From NCBI RefSeq assembly GCF_040448675.1, contig NZ_CP159289.1:7113001-7177000 (forward strand): 64,000 nt of DNA, in the 5' to 3' direction. A program made the translations under genes and the position numbers. This DNA comes from Dyadobacter sp. 676 (GTDB lineage: Bacteria; Bacteroidota; Bacteroidia; Cytophagales; Spirosomataceae). Shown one piece after another: positions 35,493 to 47,758 of this stretch. Positions within the stretch are counted from its first letter, which is position 1. The number at the start of each line of letters is the position of its first letter. The notes under the pieces were generated by a model, which made no database searches, was not told the DNA's origin, and worked only from the letters and a program-made list of their open reading frames with translations.

Positions 35493-36398
35493 TTGAAATC
35501 TCTCGCCAACATCAGATTAATGCAACCCGCCGACATACCGTTCGGGATGAACCTTGTGCAGCAAGCAGGCTGGAACCAGGTGGAAGCAGACTGGCGCCGG
35601 GCGCTGGCGCTTCAACCGGAAGGCTGTTTTGTAGCCGAGCAAAGCGGGACCCCGGCCGGTACCGTCACGACCTGCCGCTTCGGTAGCGTAGCCTGGATCG
35701 CGATGGTCCTTGTAGATACCGCTGCACGGAACCAAGGCATCGGCAAAAGGTTGATGGAACACGCCATGGCCCACCTCGACGGCCTCGGCGTGGAAACCCA
35801 GCGGCTGGATGCCACCGTTTTGGGAAAGGGCCTGTATGAAAAACTTGGATTTACGGCCGAATACGAAGTCGTACGCATGAAGGGCATTGCGAAAGCCGCG
35901 GAGGACATCGAAACCGACGCCATGCGCTGGACATCCGACACGCGCGACGCCACGCTTCTCGCCCTGGATGCGCGCGTCACTGCGACCGACCGCACCATAT
36001 TCCTGCATGAGCTGGCCGGGTCGCATCCGTTTTTTTATTCGCTTTTCGAGGATGGCCTCGGCTATGCAGGCTCCCGAAAGGGGCGCAATGCGGTGCAAAT
36101 CGGCCCGGCAGCGGCATCCGGGCCGGAAGTGGGCCGGCAGCTTTGCAATGCGATGCTGCACCATTTCAGCGGGCTCCCGGTTTTCGTCGACATTCCGGTT
36201 CCCAACAAAGCCGCACTGCGCTGGGCACGGTCGGTGGGGTTGGAAGAGCAGCGGCGATTTGTGAGAATGTACCGGGGGAAAAAATTAAGCGATTGCCCGG
36301 AAATGATCTGGGCCAAGCTCGGGACCCGAAAAGGGTTAGGGATATTGAAATCTGTTATTCAACTTTCCGTAAAAAAATTGTCAGGGGCTATTCGTTGA
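35493..36398 (+). CDS. Two-domain GNAT-family N-acetyltransferase
   Basis: A 301-residue protein with two GNAT-like halves. The N-terminal one (~1-130) has the acetyl-CoA loop ARNQGIGKRLMEHAMAHL and LYEKLGFTAEYEVVRM; the C-terminal one (~150-285) resembles the Acetyltransf_18 type (YAGSRKGRNAVQIGPAAA; FVDIPVPNKAALRWARSVGLEEQRRFVRMYRG). The start codon is apparently TTG at 35493, since the typical opening IRLMQPADIPFGMNL precedes the first ATG (35520). The substrate is unknown. Its stop lies 71 bp before the protease cassette on the same strand. Confidence 0.85.
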   Translation: MKSLANIRLMQPADIPFGMNLVQQAGWNQVEADWRRALALQPEGCFVAEQSGTPAGTVTTCRFGSVAWIAMVLVDTAARNQGIGKRLMEHAMAHLDGLGVETQRLDATVLGKGLYEKLGFTAEYEVVRMKGIAKAAEDIETDAMRWTSDTRDATLLALDARVTATDRTIFLHELAGSHPFFYSLFEDGLGYAGSRKGRNAVQIGPAAASGPEVGRQLCNAMLHHFSGLPVFVDIPVPNKAALRWARSVGLEEQRRFVRMYRGKKLSDCPEMIWAKLGTRKGLGILKSVIQLSVKKLSGAIR

Positions 36399-36469
36399 AT
36401 TTAATTGATTCCCTGTTTATTTGTCTACTACAAGTTAGTTTGACTGGAAGTGCCTGGCAGATTACCGAT

Positions 36470-37594
36470 ATGAACCCTCTCGCGACACGCGGCCTTAATG
36501 CATTGTGGGCAATATTAATCACCTTATTGACCAGTTCATTAGGTCGCGCCCAAACTTTCTATGCGGTAATCGTCGCCGACGTGAGTGACCCGCTCATCGG
36601 GAAAAGCTGCGAAAAAGACTTGCAGGAAATGTCCGGGACCTTACAAAGCATTTCCAGAAAAATCGAATACAATTACCGGGAGATAATTTGTCCCAGGGAA
36701 AAATTTGGAGAAGCGGGCATCCGGGAAGCCATTTCGCAAGTCGAATGCAAACCGGAGGATATCGTTTTCTTTTATTACACCGGCCACGGCATCAATACCG
36801 CCGCCGGAAATACCCGTTTTCCTGTACTTTATCTCAACAACGAAACCCTGGAACTCGAAACCGTGCATAAGCTTTTAAAAGACAAAAAGCCGCGTTTCTG
36901 CCTTACATTCGGCGACTGCTGCAATCACTTGTCGGGCGATGCGCACAGGGTGCGCCCGGCCAGGCCTGTAACGAGGGGGATTACCGTCACGAACGATACC
37001 GCGATATTACGCCGGCTTTTTGTGCAGGCGAACGGCGATCTGCTTCTCAGCAGCGCCAGAAAAGGCGAAAAAGCGACGGCCCATCCCGATGACGGCAGCT
37101 TTTACAGCCAGACGTGGATGCAGGCGCTTGCATACGCAGGAAGCCACAATACGAACATTTCGTGGCAAACCTTCCTTACCGACACCGAAAACCGCTTGCA
37201 GGAAAGCCTGAAAGGTCTCCCCGATTCGTTGAAACACCATTCGCAATGGATAGGGAATTTCTCCGCGGAAACGATGCCCTGCCCGGAAGCCGATTTCGCG
37301 GAAATCAACAAATTCCTGAACACGCTGGCCGACGAAAAACGGCCTTTCCACGACCGTAACAAACTCCGGCTATCCCGGCAAAAGAGCTTGTTCGGCCCGG
37401 CCGCGCAAGTCAGCATTTATATGAACGATCCCGAAAGACCCGTAGAAACGCAGCCGATCGATCAATTTCTGAAACGTGTCCTGAACACTGCGGCGCTGAT
37501 CGACGAATTCAATTTTGTGGAACGCCTCTCGACGCCGGGAAAGGGGTGCGCCTATGACCTGGTGACGTTGCAGGAAATACGCAAGGCAAATTAA
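36470..37594 (+). CDS. Exported caspase-family (C14) peptidase
   Basis: A 374-residue protein with a signal peptide (LWAILITLLTSSLGRAQ, cleavage near residue 29), so it should act outside the cytoplasm. A caspase-like p20 fold follows: FYAVIVADVSDPLIG, catalytic His106 in FFYYTGHGI and catalytic Cys151 in FGDCCNH (preceded by Asp, as in the DxC motif), then LLLSSARKGEKA and FYSQTWMQAL. The final ~130 residues have no recognised domain. It begins the cassette of seven plus-strand genes; the next gene starts 10 bp after its stop. The ATG at 36470 is used because the upstream frame has no signal peptide and overlaps the GNAT gene. Confidence 0.88.
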   Translation: MNPLATRGLNALWAILITLLTSSLGRAQTFYAVIVADVSDPLIGKSCEKDLQEMSGTLQSISRKIEYNYREIICPREKFGEAGIREAISQVECKPEDIVFFYYTGHGINTAAGNTRFPVLYLNNETLELETVHKLLKDKKPRFCLTFGDCCNHLSGDAHRVRPARPVTRGITVTNDTAILRRLFVQANGDLLLSSARKGEKATAHPDDGSFYSQTWMQALAYAGSHNTNISWQTFLTDTENRLQESLKGLPDSLKHHSQWIGNFSAETMPCPEADFAEINKFLNTLADEKRPFHDRNKLRLSRQKSLFGPAAQVSIYMNDPERPVETQPIDQFLKRVLNTAALIDEFNFVERLSTPGKGCAYDLVTLQEIRKAN

Positions 37595-37604
37595 CCGGAC
37601 AAAC

Positions 37605-38210
37605 ATGGCAAGCTATTTTACCGCCCTCCTTATCATATTTTCAAGCCTGGCCGGATTGCGTGCGCAGCCTGTAATGGATCGCAAACGACTGGCCGAGTTC
37701 CACGAATTGACGGAGCGGCGCGTCACCGACCTGCAACTCTACATTTCAATGATCGCCGACAAAAGCCTCTCGCCCGAGCAGCGTGAACAGGCGGTAGAGC
37801 TCGCCCTGAGCCTTTTTGAAAAGGATTATGAAGTAAATGGCGCCAGACGGTCGCCCTACGTGCAGGTTTCGCGCAGGGACGGCACGGTATCGGCCGTTCC
37901 GGTCGGGATCTATTTCAAAAACCTCATGCGGGTGAAATTCGACAAGGTGGAGATCACTTATTACGACGCGGCGGTGGTGTCCGGGTTTGAAAAAGGCGCC
38001 GACGGCAGCTACCACGCCACAGCGACGTATTACCAGCAATTCAAGGGAATGGATAAGAACGGCAATCTCGTTTACGGCAGTCGGGACCGGAAGGACATCA
38101 GCGTTTCGGCCCGGAGCGCGGCTGTGTATGCGCACGCGGGCAAGGAGGATTTGAAGGTATTCTTTGGCGACATTACCGTCAAAGACACAGTTCCGATTCC
38201 GGGTTTTTAA
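37605..38210 (+). CDS. Exported protein of unknown function in protease cassette
   Basis: A 201-residue protein with a signal peptide (FTALLIIFSSLAGLRAQ). The mature part starts with a helical region (LAEFHELTERRVTDLQLYISMIADKSLSPEQREQAVELALSLF) and continues with a beta-rich part (VGIYFKNLMRVKFDKVEITYYDAAVVSG; YHATATYYQQFKGMDKNGNLVYG). The helix-then-sheet order recalls NTF2-like folds, but I recognise no family. It shares its general layout with the next gene. The gaps on both sides are 10 and 14 bp, so it is part of the operon. Confidence 0.8.
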   Translation: MASYFTALLIIFSSLAGLRAQPVMDRKRLAEFHELTERRVTDLQLYISMIADKSLSPEQREQAVELALSLFEKDYEVNGARRSPYVQVSRRDGTVSAVPVGIYFKNLMRVKFDKVEITYYDAAVVSGFEKGADGSYHATATYYQQFKGMDKNGNLVYGSRDRKDISVSARSAAVYAHAGKEDLKVFFGDITVKDTVPIPGF

Positions 38211-38224
38211 TAACGATTGTCACG

Positions 38225-39031
38225 ATGAAAGGCTTGCTGCTGGCATTGCTCGCCATGTATGCGCAGGTGAACGCGCAAGTCGCATATCCAGGGAGCGAGG
38301 CGGCTGGCCATACCCTGAGGAGCGACAATACCCGGAGGCCCGAAAAATTCATGACGGGTCAAATCCTGCATGTGAGCGAGTTCATCCGGCGGTTTAATGA
38401 CGCTGTCGGGCGGAGAGACGGACGTAGGGCCGCATTGTGGGACCTGTTCGACGAGGACGACAAGCGCCTGACCGGCAGCGGCGGGGCGCGTCACCCATAC
38501 ACCAGCCAGATCGGGGCATTTGTGCAGGAGGTCGCTGCCCGGCGCATCACGATTCCCGAACGGCCCAGTATGGAAGCTATCGCAGGTATTAAAATGAATT
38601 ACAAAGGTTCGGGCGACACTTTGGTCGTGCATTTGCGAAAGGGCTATACCGCGGACAGTGCTTCTTTCTGGCAGATCGCGAGGGTTATCCCACCGGGAAC
38701 ATGGACAAACGCCAAAGCAGAAATGCAGAAAGCAACGGCACGCCGGCCGGAAGCCATACTTCCGCCCAATGCACACGAGGTGAGTTTCCTGCCTTTGCTT
38801 CGGGGGCTGCACGATTACCGCAGCCTCACCCCTTTTACCCTGTGCCACGATTGCCGCGACGAGGCGTGGTGGCAGGTCGAAAATGCATTGCGAAAAGGCT
38901 GGCTGATACCCGAGGCCGTTGTATCGAACCAGATTTACCTGAGAGTCGGAAACTGGCGGATCGAGTTGAGCGAATTCATCAGGGAGAAAGAAAATTCGGG
39001 TTGGCTGATCAGCAACCTTGCTGAGGAATAG
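38225..39031 (+). CDS. Exported protein of unknown function in protease cassette
   Basis: A 268-residue protein with a signal peptide (MKGLLLALLAMYAQVNAQ). An N-terminal helical part (VSEFIRRFNDAVGRRDGRRAALWDLFD) leads to beta-rich segments (HPYTSQIGAFVQEVAARRITIPERP; LVVHLRKGYTADSASFWQIARV) and a C-terminal part with a CHDCRD motif and IYLRVGNWRIELSEFIREKENSGWL. The CxxC pair could bind metal or form a disulfide. No family recognised. Its helix-then-sheet layout resembles the preceding gene. Co-transcription is likely (14 bp before, 44 bp after). Confidence 0.8.
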   Translation: MKGLLLALLAMYAQVNAQVAYPGSEAAGHTLRSDNTRRPEKFMTGQILHVSEFIRRFNDAVGRRDGRRAALWDLFDEDDKRLTGSGGARHPYTSQIGAFVQEVAARRITIPERPSMEAIAGIKMNYKGSGDTLVVHLRKGYTADSASFWQIARVIPPGTWTNAKAEMQKATARRPEAILPPNAHEVSFLPLLRGLHDYRSLTPFTLCHDCRDEAWWQVENALRKGWLIPEAVVSNQIYLRVGNWRIELSEFIREKENSGWLISNLAEE

Positions 39032-39075
39032 CCTGGCGGCCGAAATTTGTTTTACCAAATCCTGTTTATCCTGAA

Positions 39076-40551
39076 ATGAGATCTTCCATAAAAATAGCAG
39101 CCTTCGCGGTGCTCACATGGACGCTGGCCGGCCCGGTGGCACCATCGCAGGCGCAAACCCGGGGCATGGGCCTGAAAATGGATGACTCGAAATACCTCCG
39201 CCTGCCCCGCAAATCGCCGGATGTTCTGCTCAAAGGGCCGCTCCCGGGGTCGTTCAGTATCCGGGGCCTCTTGCCTGAAATCGGCGATCAGGGGATGGAC
39301 GGCACCTGCGTAGGCTGGTCGGCCGCCTACTATATGCGTACAGCCATGGAAGCCCGCAAAACGGGGCTTGGCAACCAACCGGAGAAAATCACGGCAAAGG
39401 CATTTTCACCCGGCTGGCTGTACGGGCAGCTCAAATCCGGGCTGGGTACCGAATGTACCGAGGGCGTTTACCTCGAAGACGCCCTGGAAGTGATGAAAAC
39501 CAAAGGGGCCGCGCTCCTCAGCTGCGCGCCGGGGAGCTGCGATGTTCGGTATGGCCAATGCGACGACCAGGCCGCCAATTATACAATCGCCGACTATGCC
39601 ACGCTTTTTAACCCGAACGACAACAACACGACGCCCGAACAACGTATTGCGGCTATTAAGTCGGCCCTGGTCGAAAGCGGCAATGCCGTGCTGATCGGTA
39701 TGCTGGTACCGCCGTCGTTTATCGAGGCGGTTGGCGAGCATTGGCAACCGGCGGCCGGAGAAACGATTGAAAATGCCGCCGGAGGGCACTCGATGGCTGT
39801 GATCGGCTATGACGACCATGTCCGGAACGGCTCGTTCCTTATCGCCAACAGCTGGGGAAAAAGCTGGGGTGCCGGTGGATACATCTGGGCCAGCTATGCC
39901 GATATCGCCCGCTTTACAAGATATGCCTATCAGGTTTACACGGAACCTGCCGTAAAACCAACGCCGCAAACGGTTTCCCTCAAAGGGAATGTCGATTTTG
40001 TAACCGGAAACGGTGCAATGCCCGTCCGATCGACGCTTCTGAAAGGCGCGCAGGTAACCCCGGCGCATGCCGGGAGCGGAACAGGGATGATCAGCTACAC
40101 CATGAGCCGGCCTTACGCTTCCGGAACGCGGTTCAAAATGGTAATCAACAACACCAGACAAGCCTATGTGTACATCCTCGGCTCCGATATGGATAACCGG
40201 GTTTCGCCGCTTTTTCCGTACAACTCGGGGGACATTACCACCAGCGCTGTGGTGCCCGCCAACAGCCAGGTACTCATGCCGTCCGCACACACTTCCTTTA
40301 CCCTCGACGATGTAAAGGGAGAAGACTATTTCATCATTTTTATTTCCCGAAACCAGCTGAACCTGACGGAACTCGCCGCGAAAATCAAAAATGCGGAGGG
40401 TACGATCGTTCAAAAAGTTTATACGGCGCTGGGGGAAGACTTTATCTCACCGCACGCAATTGTATACGAGCCAGGGAAAATCTCCTATGAAGTAAAAGGG
40501 GCGCCGAAAGGAAGTGTGGTACCAATGCTTGTAAGGATAATACATCAATAA
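39076..40551 (+). CDS. Exported papain-like (C1) cysteine peptidase with DUF4384-like tail
   Basis: A 491-residue protein. After a signal peptide (to about residue 27, ending SQAQ), a papain-fold peptidase spans ~55-295 with a complete catalytic set: Cys78 in DGTCVGWSAAY (preceded by GDQG), His238 in GGHSMAVIGYDD and Asn258 in IANSWGKSWGAGGYIW. The C-terminal ~170 residues (SRPYASGTRFKMVINNTRQAYVYILGSD; LFPYNSGD; LDDVKGEDYFIIFIS) match the DUF4384 style also seen in the last gene of the cassette. It is the only papain-like enzyme here and lies between the two caspase genes. Confidence 0.9.
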   Translation: MRSSIKIAAFAVLTWTLAGPVAPSQAQTRGMGLKMDDSKYLRLPRKSPDVLLKGPLPGSFSIRGLLPEIGDQGMDGTCVGWSAAYYMRTAMEARKTGLGNQPEKITAKAFSPGWLYGQLKSGLGTECTEGVYLEDALEVMKTKGAALLSCAPGSCDVRYGQCDDQAANYTIADYATLFNPNDNNTTPEQRIAAIKSALVESGNAVLIGMLVPPSFIEAVGEHWQPAAGETIENAAGGHSMAVIGYDDHVRNGSFLIANSWGKSWGAGGYIWASYADIARFTRYAYQVYTEPAVKPTPQTVSLKGNVDFVTGNGAMPVRSTLLKGAQVTPAHAGSGTGMISYTMSRPYASGTRFKMVINNTRQAYVYILGSDMDNRVSPLFPYNSGDITTSAVVPANSQVLMPSAHTSFTLDDVKGEDYFIIFISRNQLNLTELAAKIKNAEGTIVQKVYTALGEDFISPHAIVYEPGKISYEVKGAPKGSVVPMLVRIIHQ

Positions 40552-40691
40552 TTTCCTTTCATTTGCTTATTTTTAACTCCAGTTATAACCCGTAAATCCT
40601 CTTTGCTTTGGATAAATTTTGCGCCGACAGTCGAAGTACAAATAAAACATTAGGTTTTCGCGAAACGGTTTCCGTTTCGAAAGAGCTTGCT

Positions 40692-41403
40692 ATGTTCGTT
40701 TTAATGGCATTCTTTTGCCTCATGTTTTCGACCACTATCAATGCGCAGGACAGGATCATTCGCAAAGACGGAAAACAAATAGACGCGAAAGTGCTCGGCA
40801 CGGATTCCAAATATGTGCGTTACAAAAGAGCCGATAACCCGGATGGCCCCGATTATTTCCTTTTCCATTCGGATATTCTGAAAATCGAGTATCAAAACGG
40901 TACTGCGGAACAAAAAGGGGATCCTTTGAAATTGGGAAGGGAACCGGCGAACGGCGCGGCAATCGATATAAAACTTTTTGGAAAAAAAAGTCTCGCAGTT
41001 TAGAAAACGCGGTACCATTTATCTCACCGCCGGCACGGCGGCAATTGTTGCGGGAGCTGCCACGATAATCAAACTGAACAGCGATTACCGCGATTATAAA
41101 AGGGAAATTCAAAATACAAACGACACCTATACCGCGTGGTACCAGGCAAACTACAAGACTGCCCCACCAGCCGGCGATCTTCAGAAGCTGGAAAACTTCG
41201 GCAAATTTGCATCGCCGGGCATTTATTTCGGAGCTGTGGCGGTAGTCGGAGGAGTTGCACTGGAATTAATGGGCCTTAAAAATATACAACTGGCAAAAAA
41301 AGTACGTGCGGAGCTCGACCGGAAAAAGAGGGAACTCTCTTTTCAGCCCTACTACGAAGCGCCTCACCGGGCGGGCGGCCTGCGTATTGCGCTTTCGTTT
41401 TAA
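40692..41403 (+). pseudogene. Exported membrane protein of unknown function, frameshifted at A8
   Basis: Two overlapping ORFs join into one 236-residue protein if one A is removed from the A8 run at 40982-40989. The first part has a signal peptide (MFVLMAFFCLMFSTTINAQ) and a beta domain (DRIIRKDGKQIDAKVLGTDSKY; SDILKIEYQNGTAEQ). The second has two hydrophobic helices (GTIYLTAGTAAIVAGAATII; GIYFGAVAVVGGVALELMGL) and a basic tail. The small N-terminal domain resembles the start of the following caspase gene (LYLRNREKKIVSIREIYPD; LPIAEIAGIVYRNGTRD). The ATG at 40692 is used. Without the frameshift it would be membrane-bound. Confidence 0.75.
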
Positions 41404-41434
41404 ACCACGCTTCCATTATCCGCTTTTCGACGTT

Positions 41435-42697
41435 ATGAAGCACATTTTTACATTCCTTGCGTTAATATGCCCTCTTCTCGGTCCGCAACTATGCCGTGCC
41501 GCGGATAGCGACCCGTCCGCCGATACGCTCTATCTGAGAAACCGGGAAAAGAAAATCGTATCGATCCGTGAAATATATCCTGACATTGTAAAGTACAAAA
41601 CCGGCGAAAAACTCGTGTCTTTGCCCATTGCCGAGATAGCGGGTATCGTTTACCGCAACGGGACAAGGGACCTTTTCAATACTTTCGACGCCGGCAGCAA
41701 ACCGGAAATCAAATGGCTTACCGACGTTACTTCCAGCGACAAGCCGGAAATAAGGCTGAATGCATGTGTGCTGAACGAAGCGGAAAACATCCGCATGGAG
41801 GTCAACGGAATGCTCTCCCCTGTTGCTACACGCTCGTTCAAGGCGGTGCCGGCGAAGGAGGAAAGCTGCCTCGGCGGCACGTATATTTCCCATCAGGTGA
41901 TACTGAATGAGGGAAAAAATACCGTGAGGCTCCTGGCGGGCAACGCCTCGGGAGCAGGCAGTTCCGACACGCTCACCATCGTGTACGACAAGGCTAAAAA
42001 ACGCATTGCGCTGGTAGTGGGCAATTCTGCCTATGAAGGCGGTTCGAGGCTGCAAAATCCCGTGAACGACGCGAAGGCCGTTACCCGAAAGCTGACCAGC
42101 CTGGGATTCGAAGTGATCGAGCGGATCGATGCCCGGCAGAGCGATCTGCGTGCCGCGGTAGCGCAGTTCGGCAGCAGTATCCAGGGACAGGCCCTGGAAG
42201 TTGCCCTGTTTTACTACGCGGGCCACGGTATTCAGGTAGGTGGTAGAAATTACCTGGTGCCCGTCGATATCAGCCCGCAATCGGAAATGGAACTGAAAGT
42301 GCTGGCCGTTTCGGCAGACGATATCCTGGACCAGATGTCGGCGGTGGACGAAGATTCCCAGCGGACCAACATCATGATCCTCGACGCCTGCCGCGACAAT
42401 CCGCTGAGCCGCAGCTGGACTCGCAGTTCCGGCGCCAAGGGCCTGGCGAGCATGAGCGCCCCGCCGGGTTCGCTCATTACGTTCTCCACAAAACCCGGTT
42501 TTACGGCCCTGGACGGCGACGGTAAAAACAGTCCCTACACCGCCGAATTGCTAAAAGCGCTCGATGTGCCGGGCCTGCGGCTCGAAGACATTTTCCGCAC
42601 CGTCCGGATACGGGTAATGGAGCTGACCAACCGGCAGCAGGTCCCGATGGAAAACAGCCTGCTCACGCGCGAGGTGATCCTCAATCAATCCAACTAG
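41435..42697 (+). CDS. Exported caspase-family (C14) peptidase with N-terminal beta domains
   Basis: A 420-residue protein: signal peptide (FTFLALICPLLGPQLCRA), a small beta domain (~25-85) shared with the preceding gene, an Ig-like segment (~88-185), and a canonical caspase domain (~190-415). Catalytic His264 lies in FYYAGHGIQVGG and Cys319 in ILDACRDNP; ALVVGNSAYEGG, LQNPVNDAKAVTRKL and LITFSTKPGFTALDG are the other family signatures. This is the classical bacterial caspase-like (orthocaspase) sequence, but with export. Gaps are 31 bp before and 33 bp after. Confidence 0.93.
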   Translation: MKHIFTFLALICPLLGPQLCRAADSDPSADTLYLRNREKKIVSIREIYPDIVKYKTGEKLVSLPIAEIAGIVYRNGTRDLFNTFDAGSKPEIKWLTDVTSSDKPEIRLNACVLNEAENIRMEVNGMLSPVATRSFKAVPAKEESCLGGTYISHQVILNEGKNTVRLLAGNASGAGSSDTLTIVYDKAKKRIALVVGNSAYEGGSRLQNPVNDAKAVTRKLTSLGFEVIERIDARQSDLRAAVAQFGSSIQGQALEVALFYYAGHGIQVGGRNYLVPVDISPQSEMELKVLAVSADDILDQMSAVDEDSQRTNIMILDACRDNPLSRSWTRSSGAKGLASMSAPPGSLITFSTKPGFTALDGDGKNSPYTAELLKALDVPGLRLEDIFRTVRIRVMELTNRQQVPMENSLLTREVILNQSN

Positions 42698-42730
42698 CCC
42701 TTACGGCCACCGCCTTCCCCGAAAACCGCT

Positions 42731-44194
42731 ATGAAACGGCTGCTGATGGTCCTGATCTTCGTCCTTCCGTTACGATGTTCATTCGGGCAGGGGTTGAGCG
42801 CCTATTACAGGGTCCGGGCTGCGGAACGCGCCAAACAAGTGTTGAAAGACTTTGAATCGGCGTTCGGCCTCCTGACCAACCCTTACGTGACCGACACCGG
42901 GGAGCGTGAAGAAGCGGAATATCGCATGCAGGCCAACCTCCGCCCCGACGCCCGCTTCGAAAACGACCTGCTACCCGACAATAAGGGCACTAAAACGATC
43001 GATTTCGACGAATACAAGCGTATCGCATTCATCGGCTACCAAAAAAGCGGGCTTACCTGCCATTTCGACTGGGAAGAGGCTGAATTCAGGGCGGTCCCGG
43101 AAGGATACCTCGTATCGTTTTATGGTAAAAAGACGCTCTTTGGCCGTTATCAGGGCAATAAACCACTGGAACTAAAAGATATTCCCTGCCGTGCCGGCGT
43201 ATTTCTCCGAATGGACGGAAACCAGGTAGCAGAGGCGCGGATAGGCTTTCTGGATACCAACCTGAAAGAAAAAGGCACAGAAACGCTTTCACTTACCGAC
43301 CGGCGTAACCCGCTTGAATACATCACATTACCGGAAGTGATTGACAAACTGTCGGAAAAAATCCTCCGCTCCATTACCCAAAACGGTGTCCGTGAACTTT
43401 TTATCGAAGAAATTACCTTTCAGGGGCTGGGTATCTCCAACGATTTTTCAAAACAATTGACGGGAACGTTGAAATCGTCGCTGACACGAATGAACAACGG
43501 CATCCGGATCGACCTGCTTACGCGGGGGCTTGAACCGATGCTGAAACTGAGAGGCGGCTACGCCACATCGGGCAACTTCCTGAAAATCGGCGTGCAGCTC
43601 ATCAACGACCGCGAACAACCGGTGGGCCCGGCGCTATTGGCAGAGATATTGCTCTCTAACATCCCGAATGCCGAAATCGAACCCGATACGCAGCTTATGC
43701 AAGAGGCGTCGCACGCCCAGGCGATTACTGCAACGGACGACGACCGGCCCGGCAACGGGGAGGAACTGGTGCTTGAAGTAATCACCAATAAAGGCTACGG
43801 GCCGCAATCCTACCGGGAAGGCGACAGGATGACGCTGAAAGTGCGGGCGAACAAGCCTTGTACCGTCCGGATGATTTATCAGGACGCTTCGAGGAACCTG
43901 ATCCGCCTGCGAAACGACGATTTCGCGATTGTCCCCGATGCCGTCGGCAAATGGATTGGCCTGCCCGAACAATTCGAATGCGCGGCCCCTTTTGGATTTG
44001 AATTGCTGCTGGCCTATGCTACCGAAGGTAAATTCAAACCCATTGAAAAAACGCAATGGCAAAATGGTTTTACATTTATTCTTGACGACCTGAAAAACGT
44101 AGTGGAACTGACGACCGAACAAGGGAAAAAAAAACAAATCGCAAAATCTATTATTCCCATTACAACCCAGCCCCGCAGAAACACATTTAAATGA
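42731..44194 (+). CDS. Exported DUF4384-like protein in protease cassette
   Basis: A 487-residue protein with a signal peptide (LLMVLIFVLPLRCSFGQ). The first ~270 residues are unknown. The C-terminal ~150 residues contain a DUF4384-type domain (YGPQSYREGDRMTLKVRANKPCTVRMIYQDASRNLIRL; GLPEQFECAAPFGFELLLAYATEGKF). That domain is found with bacterial caspase-like and papain-like proteases and is thought to be a beta-sandwich binding module. The same type of tail ends the papain-like gene. The A9 run near 44126 is in frame here. The stop codon overlaps the first base of the terminator hairpin. Confidence 0.82.
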   Translation: MKRLLMVLIFVLPLRCSFGQGLSAYYRVRAAERAKQVLKDFESAFGLLTNPYVTDTGEREEAEYRMQANLRPDARFENDLLPDNKGTKTIDFDEYKRIAFIGYQKSGLTCHFDWEEAEFRAVPEGYLVSFYGKKTLFGRYQGNKPLELKDIPCRAGVFLRMDGNQVAEARIGFLDTNLKEKGTETLSLTDRRNPLEYITLPEVIDKLSEKILRSITQNGVRELFIEEITFQGLGISNDFSKQLTGTLKSSLTRMNNGIRIDLLTRGLEPMLKLRGGYATSGNFLKIGVQLINDREQPVGPALLAEILLSNIPNAEIEPDTQLMQEASHAQAITATDDDRPGNGEELVLEVITNKGYGPQSYREGDRMTLKVRANKPCTVRMIYQDASRNLIRLRNDDFAIVPDAVGKWIGLPEQFECAAPFGFELLLAYATEGKFKPIEKTQWQNGFTFILDDLKNVVELTTEQGKKKQIAKSIIPITTQPRRNTFK

Positions 44195-44226
44195 AAGAGG
44201 CCCGTCGAAACCGTCGGGCACTCTTT
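44194..44226 (+). terminator. Rho-independent terminator at the end of the protease cassette
   Basis: Stem AAAGAGGCCCG / CGGGC-A-CTCTTT (one bulged A) around a 10-nt loop, starting at the stop codon of the DUF4384-like gene and ending in CTCTTTGGTT. It separates the cassette from the sigma-factor gene. Confidence 0.75.
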
Positions 44227-44425
44227 GGTTAGTAATAACCCACACCCCAAAAACGTCCGGCCTGCATGGTGCGCGGGCACGCGCGGGCTTCCGGTTTTGG
44301 GGATGAACATTTATCCGCCCAGGTTTCGAAACATTATCACCGTTGGGCAATCTTTTTTGAAATTGTTTTGTAGCAGGCTTCCCGAACCGGCTCTTTTTTG
44401 TTTTTTTGCAGAAATATCGAGGCGA

Positions 44426-45103
44426 ATGACATTCCAAGATTCCAGCAAACGCTACCTTGATTCCGACCGGTTGTTTTATGAAGAATTGCTTCGGGAAAAT
44501 CGCGATGCATATTCTTTCCTGTATTTTCAAACCTACCGGCAATGCATTCCCTATGTTTTAAAAAGGGGCGCCGACCAACAGCAGGCGGAAGACCTTTTGC
44601 AGGAATGCCTGGCCATTTTTCTGGTTAAAGTGCGTGACGGAAGCTTCGTGTATCAGGAAAGTACGCGCATTACCAGCTATTTTTTTCGCATTTACATTAA
44701 TCAATGGAAAAAAAGCCTCGAACAGGCCAACCGCCGTAATGAAGTACGGTTGGAAAGCCGGCTTGCGGCAGAAGACGACGGTGAAGAATCGTATAAAGAC
44801 GGAAGTGCCACCGGCACTTTTAAAATTACGGGCTTTGACGACGACGGCAACGCATTTGAAACGGCCCTGCCGGAGGCCGTTCTGCAAGCCTATGACAGCG
44901 ACGAACGCCACTGGATTTTCCGGAAGCTGGACCGCGCTTTTCAACTGCTGGCTGACGATTGCCGGAAAGTGCTGCGATGGTTTTACGTCGACGGCTGGTC
45001 GCTGCGGGAGATCGCGGGCGAACTTGGCATGACCGAGGCTTCGGCGATGGTGAAGCGGTTCAAATGCGCGAAGTACCTGAGGGAAAAATTTCATTTGCAG
45101 TGA
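44426..45103 (+). CDS. ECF-like sigma factor next to the protease cassette
   Basis: A 225-residue protein with sigma-70 features: a region-2-like part (YSFLYFQTYRQCIPYVLKRGADQQQAEDLLQECLAIFLVKVRDGSF; RITSYFFRIYINQWKKSLEQ) and a region-4 helix-turn-helix near the end (VLRWFYVDGWSLREIAGELGMTEASAMVKRFKCAKYLR). An unusual ~50-residue acidic insertion (AAEDDGEESYKDGS) separates the two. The ATG at 44426 (MTFQDSSKRYL) is used. It is followed by a membrane anti-sigma-like protein, so the pair probably regulates the envelope genes nearby (inference). Confidence 0.85.
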   Translation: MTFQDSSKRYLDSDRLFYEELLRENRDAYSFLYFQTYRQCIPYVLKRGADQQQAEDLLQECLAIFLVKVRDGSFVYQESTRITSYFFRIYINQWKKSLEQANRRNEVRLESRLAAEDDGEESYKDGSATGTFKITGFDDDGNAFETALPEAVLQAYDSDERHWIFRKLDRAFQLLADDCRKVLRWFYVDGWSLREIAGELGMTEASAMVKRFKCAKYLREKFHLQ

Positions 45104-45165
45104 TAAGAATCAGCGGAAACGCGTATCAACCAGTATAACCTACCAGCGAATCACGATTGGAGCAT

Positions 45166-46047
45166 ATGGAATTATCAGAGGAAGCCTTTCATGAAATTCA
45201 CCGCTACCTGGCCGGACAGGGCACTGCGGGGGAACGGGCGGATTTCGAAAGACGCATGCAAGCGGACGAGGCACTCGCCCGGGAAGTCGAAACCCAACGC
45301 CGCATTCGTGACGGACTGAAAGCGAATGAATACAAAAAACTTTTTAAAGATATTCACGCCCAGCTAAAAAGCGAAGGGGCGCTGTATGAACACCACGACC
45401 GGGATGAAACCGGGATTACACCTCTTAACGCGGATAACAGCTCCCCAACCGGCATTCGCTGGCCGTACATCGCCGCCGCCGCAAGCATTCTCGTCGCGGC
45501 CGGATTGGTGTGGTATATCAACTTCGCTCCGGACAACACGCAGATAGCCTCGGAAACCCCTGCCAGGGAACTACCCGTAATGCCCGATACCGCCGCTACG
45601 AAGGGCGGGACCGATGAAAGCGCCGATACTTCGAAAACGCCCGTACTAAAACCGAAAAGGCCGGCAAAAACGGAACCGGTCGTTAGCAACACCGATTTTT
45701 TTGCCCAATATTTCCGCCCCGACTTGGAGCTGGAAAGTCCGTTTCCGAAGGACAAGCTTGGCATAAGTCCCTCCGCATTCCGGCAATGGCGGTCGGATAC
45801 TACACATATACGCCAGGGCGTGCGTTACCTCGCGCAGCGCGAGGCGACTGCGGCACTGCCGGAGTTCCGGCAGGCTGAGGCCAGCCAGTTCAGGCAGGTC
45901 AGAGATGCGGCGGAATGGTTCGCCGCCCTGGCCTATCTGCAACAAAACGACCTGAAAAACTGCGAAGAACAACTGAAAAAGATCAGCGCCAATCCGGAAA
46001 ATATATATAACAAACAGGCCGTGGAATTGCTTGCCAAAATCCGTTAA
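45166..46047 (+). CDS. Membrane anti-sigma-like protein with TPR-like tail
   Basis: A 293-residue protein. The N-terminal cytoplasmic part (EIHRYLAGQGTAGERADFERRMQADEALAREVETQRRI) matches the anti-sigma type domain in Bacteroidota regulators, without a zinc-binding His/Cys set. A single helix spans about residues 100-118 (WPYIAAAASILVAAGLVWYI), then a proline-rich linker and a periplasmic helical region (ATAALPEFRQAEASQFRQVRDAAEWFAALAYLQQNDLKNCEEQL) of TPR character. The ATG at 45166 has GGAG upstream; TTG at 45157 is less likely. It lies 62 bp after the sigma gene, so they form a pair. Confidence 0.82.
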   Translation: MELSEEAFHEIHRYLAGQGTAGERADFERRMQADEALAREVETQRRIRDGLKANEYKKLFKDIHAQLKSEGALYEHHDRDETGITPLNADNSSPTGIRWPYIAAAASILVAAGLVWYINFAPDNTQIASETPARELPVMPDTAATKGGTDESADTSKTPVLKPKRPAKTEPVVSNTDFFAQYFRPDLELESPFPKDKLGISPSAFRQWRSDTTHIRQGVRYLAQREATAALPEFRQAEASQFRQVRDAAEWFAALAYLQQNDLKNCEEQLKKISANPENIYNKQAVELLAKIR

Positions 46048-46080
46048 CTTTACCTATACCTCCCTACCGACGTTCATTCT

Positions 46081-47731
46081 ATGAAGAAGGCTTTTACATA
46101 TTTTCTGCTGATATCGGTGGCTGTTGCCTGCCATGTGGATATACCGCAAAAACCGCTTTCACTGTTCAGATTTACACCTGAAAACGGATGCAAGGCTCCG
46201 TGTACCGTGACATTTACGAGCCAGTCGGAGAATGCTGCGAGCCTACTTTGGGATTTCGGCGATGAAACTGAACTCGTAAGCGGCGACTCAGTGACACATG
46301 AGTTTTTGTCGGAGAAAATTTACCAGGTAAAATTAATCGTGAGAGGTATCGATGGCGGCAGTAGCGGCAATACACAAGCTGTAAAAGTCGACCGAGCTGA
46401 TCCTAAGGAAACATTCGGCATATCGGGCGATAATAACTTCCCAACGGACATTGTTTCCGACGCTAATGGCAATATCTACATTTCAGGAACTGGCAAAGGC
46501 ACAATACAATTTGGAACCGGCAAGGTATATCACTCGGTAGGCGGCTCGGACGACTTTTTTGTTGCCAAGTTCAATAGTTCGGGCCAATGTCAATGGGTAT
46601 ACATGGACGGCAGCACAGGGGACGATCACGCTAACGCATTGGCGCTAGGCAATAATAACGATGTGTATGTGACCGGTTTCATTAGTGGCTCGGTTAATAA
46701 ATCGGATGTTGTTCCAAAAGGCAAGATAGATGGATTTGTCGCAAGACTTAATGGCCTAACCGGTGCCCCCCCAATGGTTTAAAACTTTTGGAGGGCCACT
46801 GGAAGATCAGGGACGATCACTGGCATTTGATGAACGAGGTGAAGGTCCTAAAATTTACATGGTAGGCGTTGTAGAAGGTGATAATAAAAACAAAAACATC
46901 GATTTGAACGGCGTATCGGTTCCAGCTAACGAGCGGGATGGATTCCTTGCCGTTTTGGATGCTCGCAATGGTGAATTTCAACGCAGGAGTATGATCACAG
47001 GGCCGAACGCGCAAGTGCCCGAAACAATAACTGTCGATAATGAGGGTAATGCCTACGTTGCCGGCGCATTCCTTGAATCCGTAAGTTTTTCGTCACCGGA
47101 CCAGACGCTCAGCGGTGTCGATAGTGTCGATATTTTTGTGGCGAAATGGGGGCTCATCGACACCGGATTTTTATGGGCGCGTCGTGCAGCCTCGGCACGT
47201 GTCGACTTCGCATATGATATTGAAGTAGATAACGACAAAAATGTGTATGTTACCGGAATGCATAACGGTGACATTACCGAGCTATCACTACACAGCCGGG
47301 GCGATGAAAACGCTTACCTTGCAAAATGGAACGCCCAGGGCAAGGTAGTGGCGGCGAGCAATGGCTTCCATAACGGGAACCGCGATTACCACGGTGGCAT
47401 AGCTCGAACGAAGGAAGGGAATATTGTATTGGCCGGTTCATTCAGTAGTACAACTGCTCAATTTCCAATGGTCGGAGGGAAATCGGTGCAAGGCAAAGGG
47501 GTTACAGACATCATTCTCACCGAGGTGGAGCCCAACCAGCTAACCCCTACCGGCTTTCTTGTCTCCGACGGCGGAGCCTATGAAGACCGGGTGAATAAGA
47601 TTTGCATTACCAACACGGGATATGTATATGCTGCTGGTTGGTTCAAAACCAATTCCAATTTCAATGAGATCAATATAAACGGCAAAAGTGACGAGCGAAA
47701 TACATTTATTACACGTTATAAGCTTCATTGA
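46081..47731 (+). pseudogene. PKD/SBBP-repeat lipoprotein, frameshifted at C7
   Basis: A lipoprotein (lipobox AVAC, Cys17) with a PKD domain (FTPENGCKAPCTVTFTSQSENAASLLWDFGDE; THEFLSEKIYQVKLIV) and a string of SBBP/propeller-like repeats (IVSDANGNIYISGTG; VAKFNSSGQCQWVY; ALGNNNDVYVTGF; VDNDKNVYVTGMHN; VYAAGWF). The frame breaks at C7 (46766-46772); with six C it reads GAPQWFKTFGGPLEDQG and gives 549 residues to the end at 47731. Such proteins are usually surface-exposed binding proteins. Its position, 33 bp after the anti-sigma gene, suggests the same operon. Base composition here is slightly more AT-rich than in the neighbours. Confidence 0.83.
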
Positions 47732-47758
47732 CAAGATTCCTTTCCGAAGCAGTTCAAA

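Follow-up and report, generated by a model that had tools for sequence, protein, structure and literature searches.

The window analysed here, 64,000 nt of the single-contig genome of Dyadobacter sp. 676 (G000:C1:7113001-7177000; positions are counted from its first letter), contains a plus-strand gene block at 36470–47731 in which two caspases and a papain-family protease are co-inherited with NTF2-like proteins and, within this clade, also with a sigma factor of the extracytoplasmic function (ECF) type and an anti-sigma-like protein with one transmembrane segment. As originally predicted, it begins with seven genes with intergenic gaps of 10–140 nt, labelled g1 to g7: a leader-bearing caspase of family C14 with the active-site pair His106/Cys151 and a g2-like C-terminal tail (g1, 36470..37594); a leader-bearing NTF2-like protein (g2, 37605..38210); a leader-bearing protein of unknown fold (g3, 38225..39031); a leader-bearing papain-family protease (Gln72, Cys78, His238, Asn258) with a DUF4384 domain (g4, 39076..40551); a leader-bearing, probably membrane protein, its frame interrupted near 40982 in the window, at an A8 run (g5, 40692..41403); a second leader-bearing caspase with His264/Cys319 (g6, 41435..42697); and a protein with an NTF2-like (residues about 23–177), a putative LpoB-like (198–308) and a DUF4384-like (360–432) part (g7, 42731..44194). 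The ECF-type sigma gene (44426..45103, ATG start picked by comparison with relatives), the anti-sigma-like gene (45166..46047, one hydrophobic segment near residue 102) and a PKD/beta-propeller-repeat gene (46081..47731, with a lipobox identified by eye and a break at a C7 run near 46770) complete the unit.

The edges of this unit are set by a congener from which it is absent as a whole: in G027 (empty site L119) the side with the GNAT acetyltransferase gene and the side with the YciI gene are only about 20 nt apart and the equivalent of window positions 36336..47751 is missing, so that the sigma, anti-sigma and PKD genes fall inside the unit. The flanking genes of G027 are as close to those of the window as are the flanks of cluster-bearing species, which would favour loss over primary absence. 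Among the nine congeners with the cluster, the GNAT gene is a neighbour in all nine, a response regulator in seven and the YciI gene in six (names by Pfam). The original prediction had closed the set at 44226 with a hairpin terminator and missed the last three genes; a hairpin of -24 kcal/mol does lie 3' of g7, but it lacks a good T-run, the sigma gene adjoins g7 in 9/9 congeners and, in five of the eight relatives measured (L030 not being among them), it starts 25–42 nt after g7.

A search with the papain across 48 genomes of the genus gave matches in 15 of them at E<=0.001, and in 10 (the source genome and nine others) these were close orthologs (E<=2.4e-216). The block is also carried by D. 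fermentans strain JDP9 (L026). The order g1...g4-g5-g6-g7-sigma-anti-sigma-PKD was kept in all nine congeners with the papain ortholog, six of which also carry g3, and a close form of the anti-sigma protein occurs in 10 of 48 congeners, precisely those with the cluster. In the wider family, g7 was matched at 44 places in 38 of 222 genomes and 12 of 36 genera; 34 of these places do not belong to the 10 orthologs, and 31 of the 34 were examined (G207:C353, G125:C307 and G108:C51 were left out). By score cuts, these 31 wider loci contained g1 in 27, g2 in 28, g3 in 20, g4 in 19, a g6-type caspase in 29, the sigma gene in 15 and the anti-sigma gene in 14, the count of g7 itself being uninformative since g7 had been used to pick them. 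Conserved order in relatives, which had been proposed as a check on the cassette, was thus borne out within the genus, while across the family the same gene set recurs reshuffled; content that persists despite varied order points to more than recent shared ancestry. Seven wider loci (L071, L074, L082, L084, L091, L093 and L098) have an extra leader-bearing protein of about 300–349 aa after g3, in a gap of about 0.9–1.03 kb, which the window does not have.

The linkage was also evident from g1, whose profile matched 93 of the 222 family genomes at E<=0.001; 41 of the places, spread over 35 genomes, were close (E<=1.6e-46), and the next row fell to 5.1e-27. At 39 of these 41 places g7 lay no more than 15 kb away, and in the two remaining genomes (G207 and G139) it is on another contig; 39 of the 44 g7 places had a close g1 nearby, and among the matches listed, only 3 of the next 29 caspase places were near g7. 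At order level the g7 profile matched 46 of 341 genomes, many over only part of g7, and g2 was found at phylum level in 12 of 395 genomes. In another family of the order, L109 has a g7-like gene close to a gene for a caspase with tetratricopeptide repeats (TPR) and to an OmpA-PD40 gene (Pfam), and L111 has one close to a caspase gene (by profile only).

All three enzymes belong to the families first assigned to them and conserve their active sites. Peptidase_C14 (PF00656, cut-off 21.4) matched g1 with 46.4 bits and g6 with 131.1 bits, and Peptidase_C1 (PF00112, cut-off 20.7) matched g4 with 35.4 bits. His106/Cys151 of g1 are invariant in 10/10 orthologs and in 27/27 sequences of the wider loci (37/37 in total); His264/Cys319 of g6 are invariant in 10/10 orthologs and in 36/37 wider g6-type caspases, one having Thr for Cys (46/47); and Cys78/His238/Asn258 of g4 are invariant in 10/10 orthologs and in 23 of 24 wider g4-type sequences, one being without the Cys and His (33/34), where the totals combine the orthologs with those sequences of the wider loci that passed cuts on score and length. 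By profile, the nearest solved structures to g6 are those of the MALT1 paracaspase (E 2.7e-13). A small extra gene lies 5' of g4 in six of the nine congeners.

In a wide profile comparison that excluded g1-g2 fusions, one domain was found to be common to the tail of g1, to g2 and to the N-terminus of g7. Three of the 36 family pairs exceeded 90%: g1-g6, g2-g7 and g1-g2. Two g1 profiles held both g1-g2 fusions and their g1-to-g2 cross-matches are therefore confounded; the tail comparisons were made with the fusions left out. With narrow alignments g2 showed no similarity to g7 or to g3; the wide ones linked g2 with g7, and the similarity of g3 to g2 was weak (51.7%). In L028 and L030 a g2 domain is fused to g1, where it replaces the g1 tail. 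Structure matches of the models of g2 and of the N-terminus of g7 gave the NTF2-like fold; the AlphaFold2 (AF2) model of g7 had a predicted local distance difference test (pLDDT) score of 83.7, and its fold comparison suggested a possible LpoB-like part. The prediction had argued for interacting products from shared domains, and this idea is supported with a different domain: the small N-terminal beta domain proposed for g5 and g6 found no support (hhalign probability 0.2%), and the part shared is the one common to the g1 tail, g2 and g7. DUF4384 (PF14326, cut-off 27), which it had placed in two proteins, was confirmed in g4 (49.1 bits) but remained below the cut-off in g7 (21.9 bits), although several g7 relatives carry PF14326 or the DUF4384 name in their source annotation; profile-profile comparison of g4 with g7 gave nothing in narrow alignments and 16.4% and 6.2% in wide ones, so that the DUF4384 link between them derives from Pfam.

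Proteins with the g2 domain also occur elsewhere. The source genome has a second one (L102, G000:C1:3345001-3365000); other genes of that locus encode an AAA protein resembling ClpB, an OmpA protein and a small protein that matches a cysteine-proteinase-fold model (AIM3/BBC1). In L104-L107 a g2-g3 pair adjoins a leader-bearing protein of 811–829 aa in a stretch with no caspase match; in L104, the one of the four that was scanned, Pfam identified leucine-rich repeats in this neighbour.

The sigma factor matched TIGR02937 with 60.2 bits (cut-off 42.9). In 10/10 orthologs of the anti-sigma-like protein the best hydrophobic segment lies near residue 100 and is followed by about 165–175 residues, and PKD and SBBP domains were found by Pfam in the intact PKD-gene relatives of L023 and L027. 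For the 18 anti-sigma genes present in loci L032-L034 and L071-L101, the next same-strand gene downstream was recorded: it was g4-like in 12, g1 in two (L075, L076), a g6-type caspase in one (233 nt off) and another gene in three, and in 11 of the 12 g4-like cases the gap was -4 to 30 nt. When only the loci chosen by g7 are considered, this next gene was a papain in 10 of 15. Family-wide, all 30 anti-sigma hits at E<=1e-60 had a papain match within 12 kb and 14 had one within 300 nt, and 14 of the 15 papains of the short type (E<=1e-100) were within 300 nt of an anti-sigma gene, the exception being G159:C351. The models were built from cluster members, and 15 of the 30 anti-sigma hits and nine of the 15 short-type papains are model rows; among non-model hits, a papain was within 12 kb of the anti-sigma gene in 15/15 and within 300 nt in 5/15, and 5/6 short-type papains were within 300 nt of an anti-sigma gene.

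Two other Dyadobacter genomes (L032, L033) have a second type of cluster, with a caspase of about 515 aa, a regulator-like protein, an anti-sigma-like protein and two tandem g4-like genes; the L032 caspase is a Pfam C14 member, and the papain motif searched for was seen only in the second g4-like gene of L032. For the candidate sigma gene 5' of the anti-sigma gene in these two loci, Pfam gave only a GerE-type match below the cut-off, so that it is a sigma gene there by position alone.

Hydrophobic starts can be discerned by eye on all seven products g1-g7, which agrees with the signal peptides attributed to them, but two crude rules were partly in conflict. Rule 1, which 9 of 49 open reading frames (ORFs) in the window pass, gave leaders in 8/10 g1, 2/7 g2, 1/7 g3, 8/10 g4, 2/9 g5, 8/10 g6 and 10/10 g7 sequences; rule 2 gave 7/10, 7/7, 7/7, 8/10, 7/9, 10/10 and only 4/10, respectively, so that the rules disagree on g2, g3 and g5 on the one side and on g7 on the other. 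The sigma and anti-sigma sequences scored 0 under both. From these starts the two caspases and the papain appear to be exported from the cell.

We tentatively favour, at somewhat less than an even chance, the reading that the block encodes a protease signalling module which works outside the cytoplasm and is coupled to an anti-sigma/sigma switch; the linkage of the genes is shown, and the export, cleavage and cascade that this reading entails are inferred. In the periplasm, the domain common to g1, g2 and g7 would bring a caspase and the g7 adaptor together; a signal from the envelope, perhaps received by the PKD protein or by g7, would trigger the caspases and the papain; these might then cut the anti-sigma factor in its periplasmic part, or act on it through a relay; and the freed sigma factor would alter transcription, perhaps of its own block too. 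A more specific version, in which the caspases and papain are themselves the first-cut proteases of the ECF sigma/anti-sigma switch and a periplasmic two-caspase cascade built on NTF2-like domains carries the envelope signal to transcription, is rather doubtful. The protease cassette first proposed for the seven genes is in these respects partly supported.

Several observations weigh against a module of this kind. In the window itself the gene after the anti-sigma gene is the PKD gene and not one for a protease; the anti-sigma assignment comes from position, topology and weak models (NF052375, 26.5 bits against a cut-off of 100); two of the 12 g4-like neighbours, those in L032 and L033, are of doubtful activity and were fetched for g4, and the L032 one has no Pfam C1 match; nine of the 15 short-type papains are themselves rows of the model that found them; and in the weaker anti-sigma tier (1e-60 to 1e-30) a papain was within 300 nt in only 6 of 46. 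A sigma or anti-sigma gene lies within the stretch examined in only 15 of the 31 wider loci, from which it follows that the protease/NTF2 part can exist without them nearby. Pairs of g2 and g3 occur in other genomes with no caspase match, so that g2 and g3 look like general exported parts recruited into this cluster. The leader calls come from crude, partly conflicting rules; export, cleavage and binding are predictions; and the loci are related by descent, so that their counts are not independent events.

The wider loci with no sigma or anti-sigma gene nearby, 16 of the 31, would suit a degradative or processing set, in which the exported enzymes break down or mature proteins of the envelope or of the surroundings, while the sigma/anti-sigma pair only regulates their expression, the anti-sigma factor being no substrate. 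All of the enzymes have leader-like starts, and sigma/anti-sigma genes beside the genes that they regulate are ordinary in Bacteroidota; caspase-fold enzymes, however, are usually specific processing enzymes, and the domain common to the g1 tail, g2 and g7, together with the near-overlapping anti-sigma and papain genes, fits signalling better. No type IX secretion system (T9SS) C-terminal sorting-domain model was among the NCBIfam matches of 10 window sequences (the PKD gene not included), a library to which we take that model to belong. We consider this explanation unlikely. That the genes merely form a loose neighbourhood, with co-descent and joint expression and no common function, is very improbable: conserved order within Dyadobacter could on its own reflect recent ancestry, but content is kept while order is reshuffled across genera, g1 and g2 are fused in places, the whole block is absent as one piece from G027, and the g1-g7 linkage counts and the common domain also speak against it.

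Patchy presence (10 of 48 congeners) and the absence of the block from G027 would also suit an envelope conflict or cell-death system, in which a rival, predator or phage is sensed and the caspases bring about lysis or envelope damage. Bacterial caspases often occur in conflict systems, one kind of which includes an ECF sigma gene, according to the accessible parts of PMC8195603. The direct flanks of the block are nevertheless a response regulator, a GNAT acetyltransferase and a YciI-type protein rather than defence genes, and g7 had no match in plasmid or phage records. The PADLOC library, which is without cut-offs, gave only weak, partial caspase-model matches for 2 of 10 window sequences (30.3 and 39.7 bits), and the EACC1-associated caspase model (NF047832) scored 26.8 and 49.7 bits against a curated score of 140. 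Such a system is quite unlikely here.

Bacterial caspases are widespread, and few have an assigned role. In switches of the Sigma-E/RseA type a membrane anti-sigma factor is cut on its periplasmic side and releases an ECF sigma factor, the first cleavers being DegS-type serine proteases; the signalling module would resemble these in its mode of working, which is suggested here by gene adjacency, and differs from them in that papain or caspase genes adjoin the anti-sigma gene in many loci. MALT1 is a human cytosolic signalling enzyme, whereas g6, whose nearest solved structures by profile are those of MALT1, begins with a leader-like sequence and differs from it at the N-terminus. Gingipains and clostripain are secreted clan CD proteases and thus likewise exported caspase-fold enzymes, but they belong to families C25 and C11, not C14, and to our knowledge are not associated with sigma/anti-sigma genes. 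Caspase signalling to an ECF sigma/anti-sigma switch outside the cytoplasm has, as far as we know from a search of the open literature, not been described, and that search, which did not extend to supplementary tables, found no account of this gene set.

The statement in the original prediction that bacterial caspases are mostly cytoplasmic was too strong, as exported ones had been predicted earlier in the accessible parts of PMC3501461 and PMC3355149, and caspase operons with sigma factors are likewise known in outline (PMC3501461, PMC3355149, PMC8195603). A survey of prokaryotic metacaspases (PLoS One 2012, PMC3501461) reports, in its accessible passages, likely signal peptides and multi-caspase operons in Bacteroidetes, as well as metacaspase operons that also encode sigma factors, OmpA or further protease domains; those passages do not contain this gene set, although Table S2 of the survey may list such an operon. 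There is also some likeness to the EACC2-caspase/TRADD-N systems (eLife 2021, PMC8195603), in which a caspase gene lies beside an ECF sigma gene and peptidase activation is proposed to feed into transcription. These systems, as far as the accessible text describes them, include a DUF1822 TPR protein, for which there was no match in the 10 window sequences scanned, whereas the present block combines leader-like caspases and a papain with NTF2-like, putatively LpoB-like and DUF4384 proteins and an anti-sigma-like protein of the membrane. Caspases that keep their active sites and appear to be exported are tied, in a compact and conserved set of an environmental genus, to a papain, to defined adaptors and often to a sigma/anti-sigma pair. 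What bacterial caspases of this exported kind cut thereby becomes open to direct test: the anti-sigma factor is a named candidate for the substrate, the NTF2-like domains probably serve in assembly, and G027 offers a natural empty-site comparison.

The gap before g5 is 135–194 nt in 10/10 loci, and this, together with conserved sequence upstream of g1 and g5, suggests two transcription units, g1-g4 and g5 onwards. The conserved blocks, at about 36425–36465 (5' of g1) and 40560–40625 (5' of g5) in most of the 10 aligned loci, are possible promoters; a common promoter recognised by the sigma factor was considered and set aside, each block being conserved but the two not resolving into one element.

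The membrane protein originally assigned to g5 is a single frame in 9/9 relatives and is split in the window into two ORFs (40692–41003 and 40978–41403) by a frame change at the A8 run; the PKD gene is likewise a single frame in 9/9 relatives. The source genome contains two further split genes (G000:C1:124736-125934 and 5044651-5045875), four in all, and its completeness is 95.3, against 99–100 in most relatives. As both breaks in the block are at homopolymers, these two other split genes and the lower completeness make sequencing indels the likely cause of the interruptions in g5 and the PKD gene.

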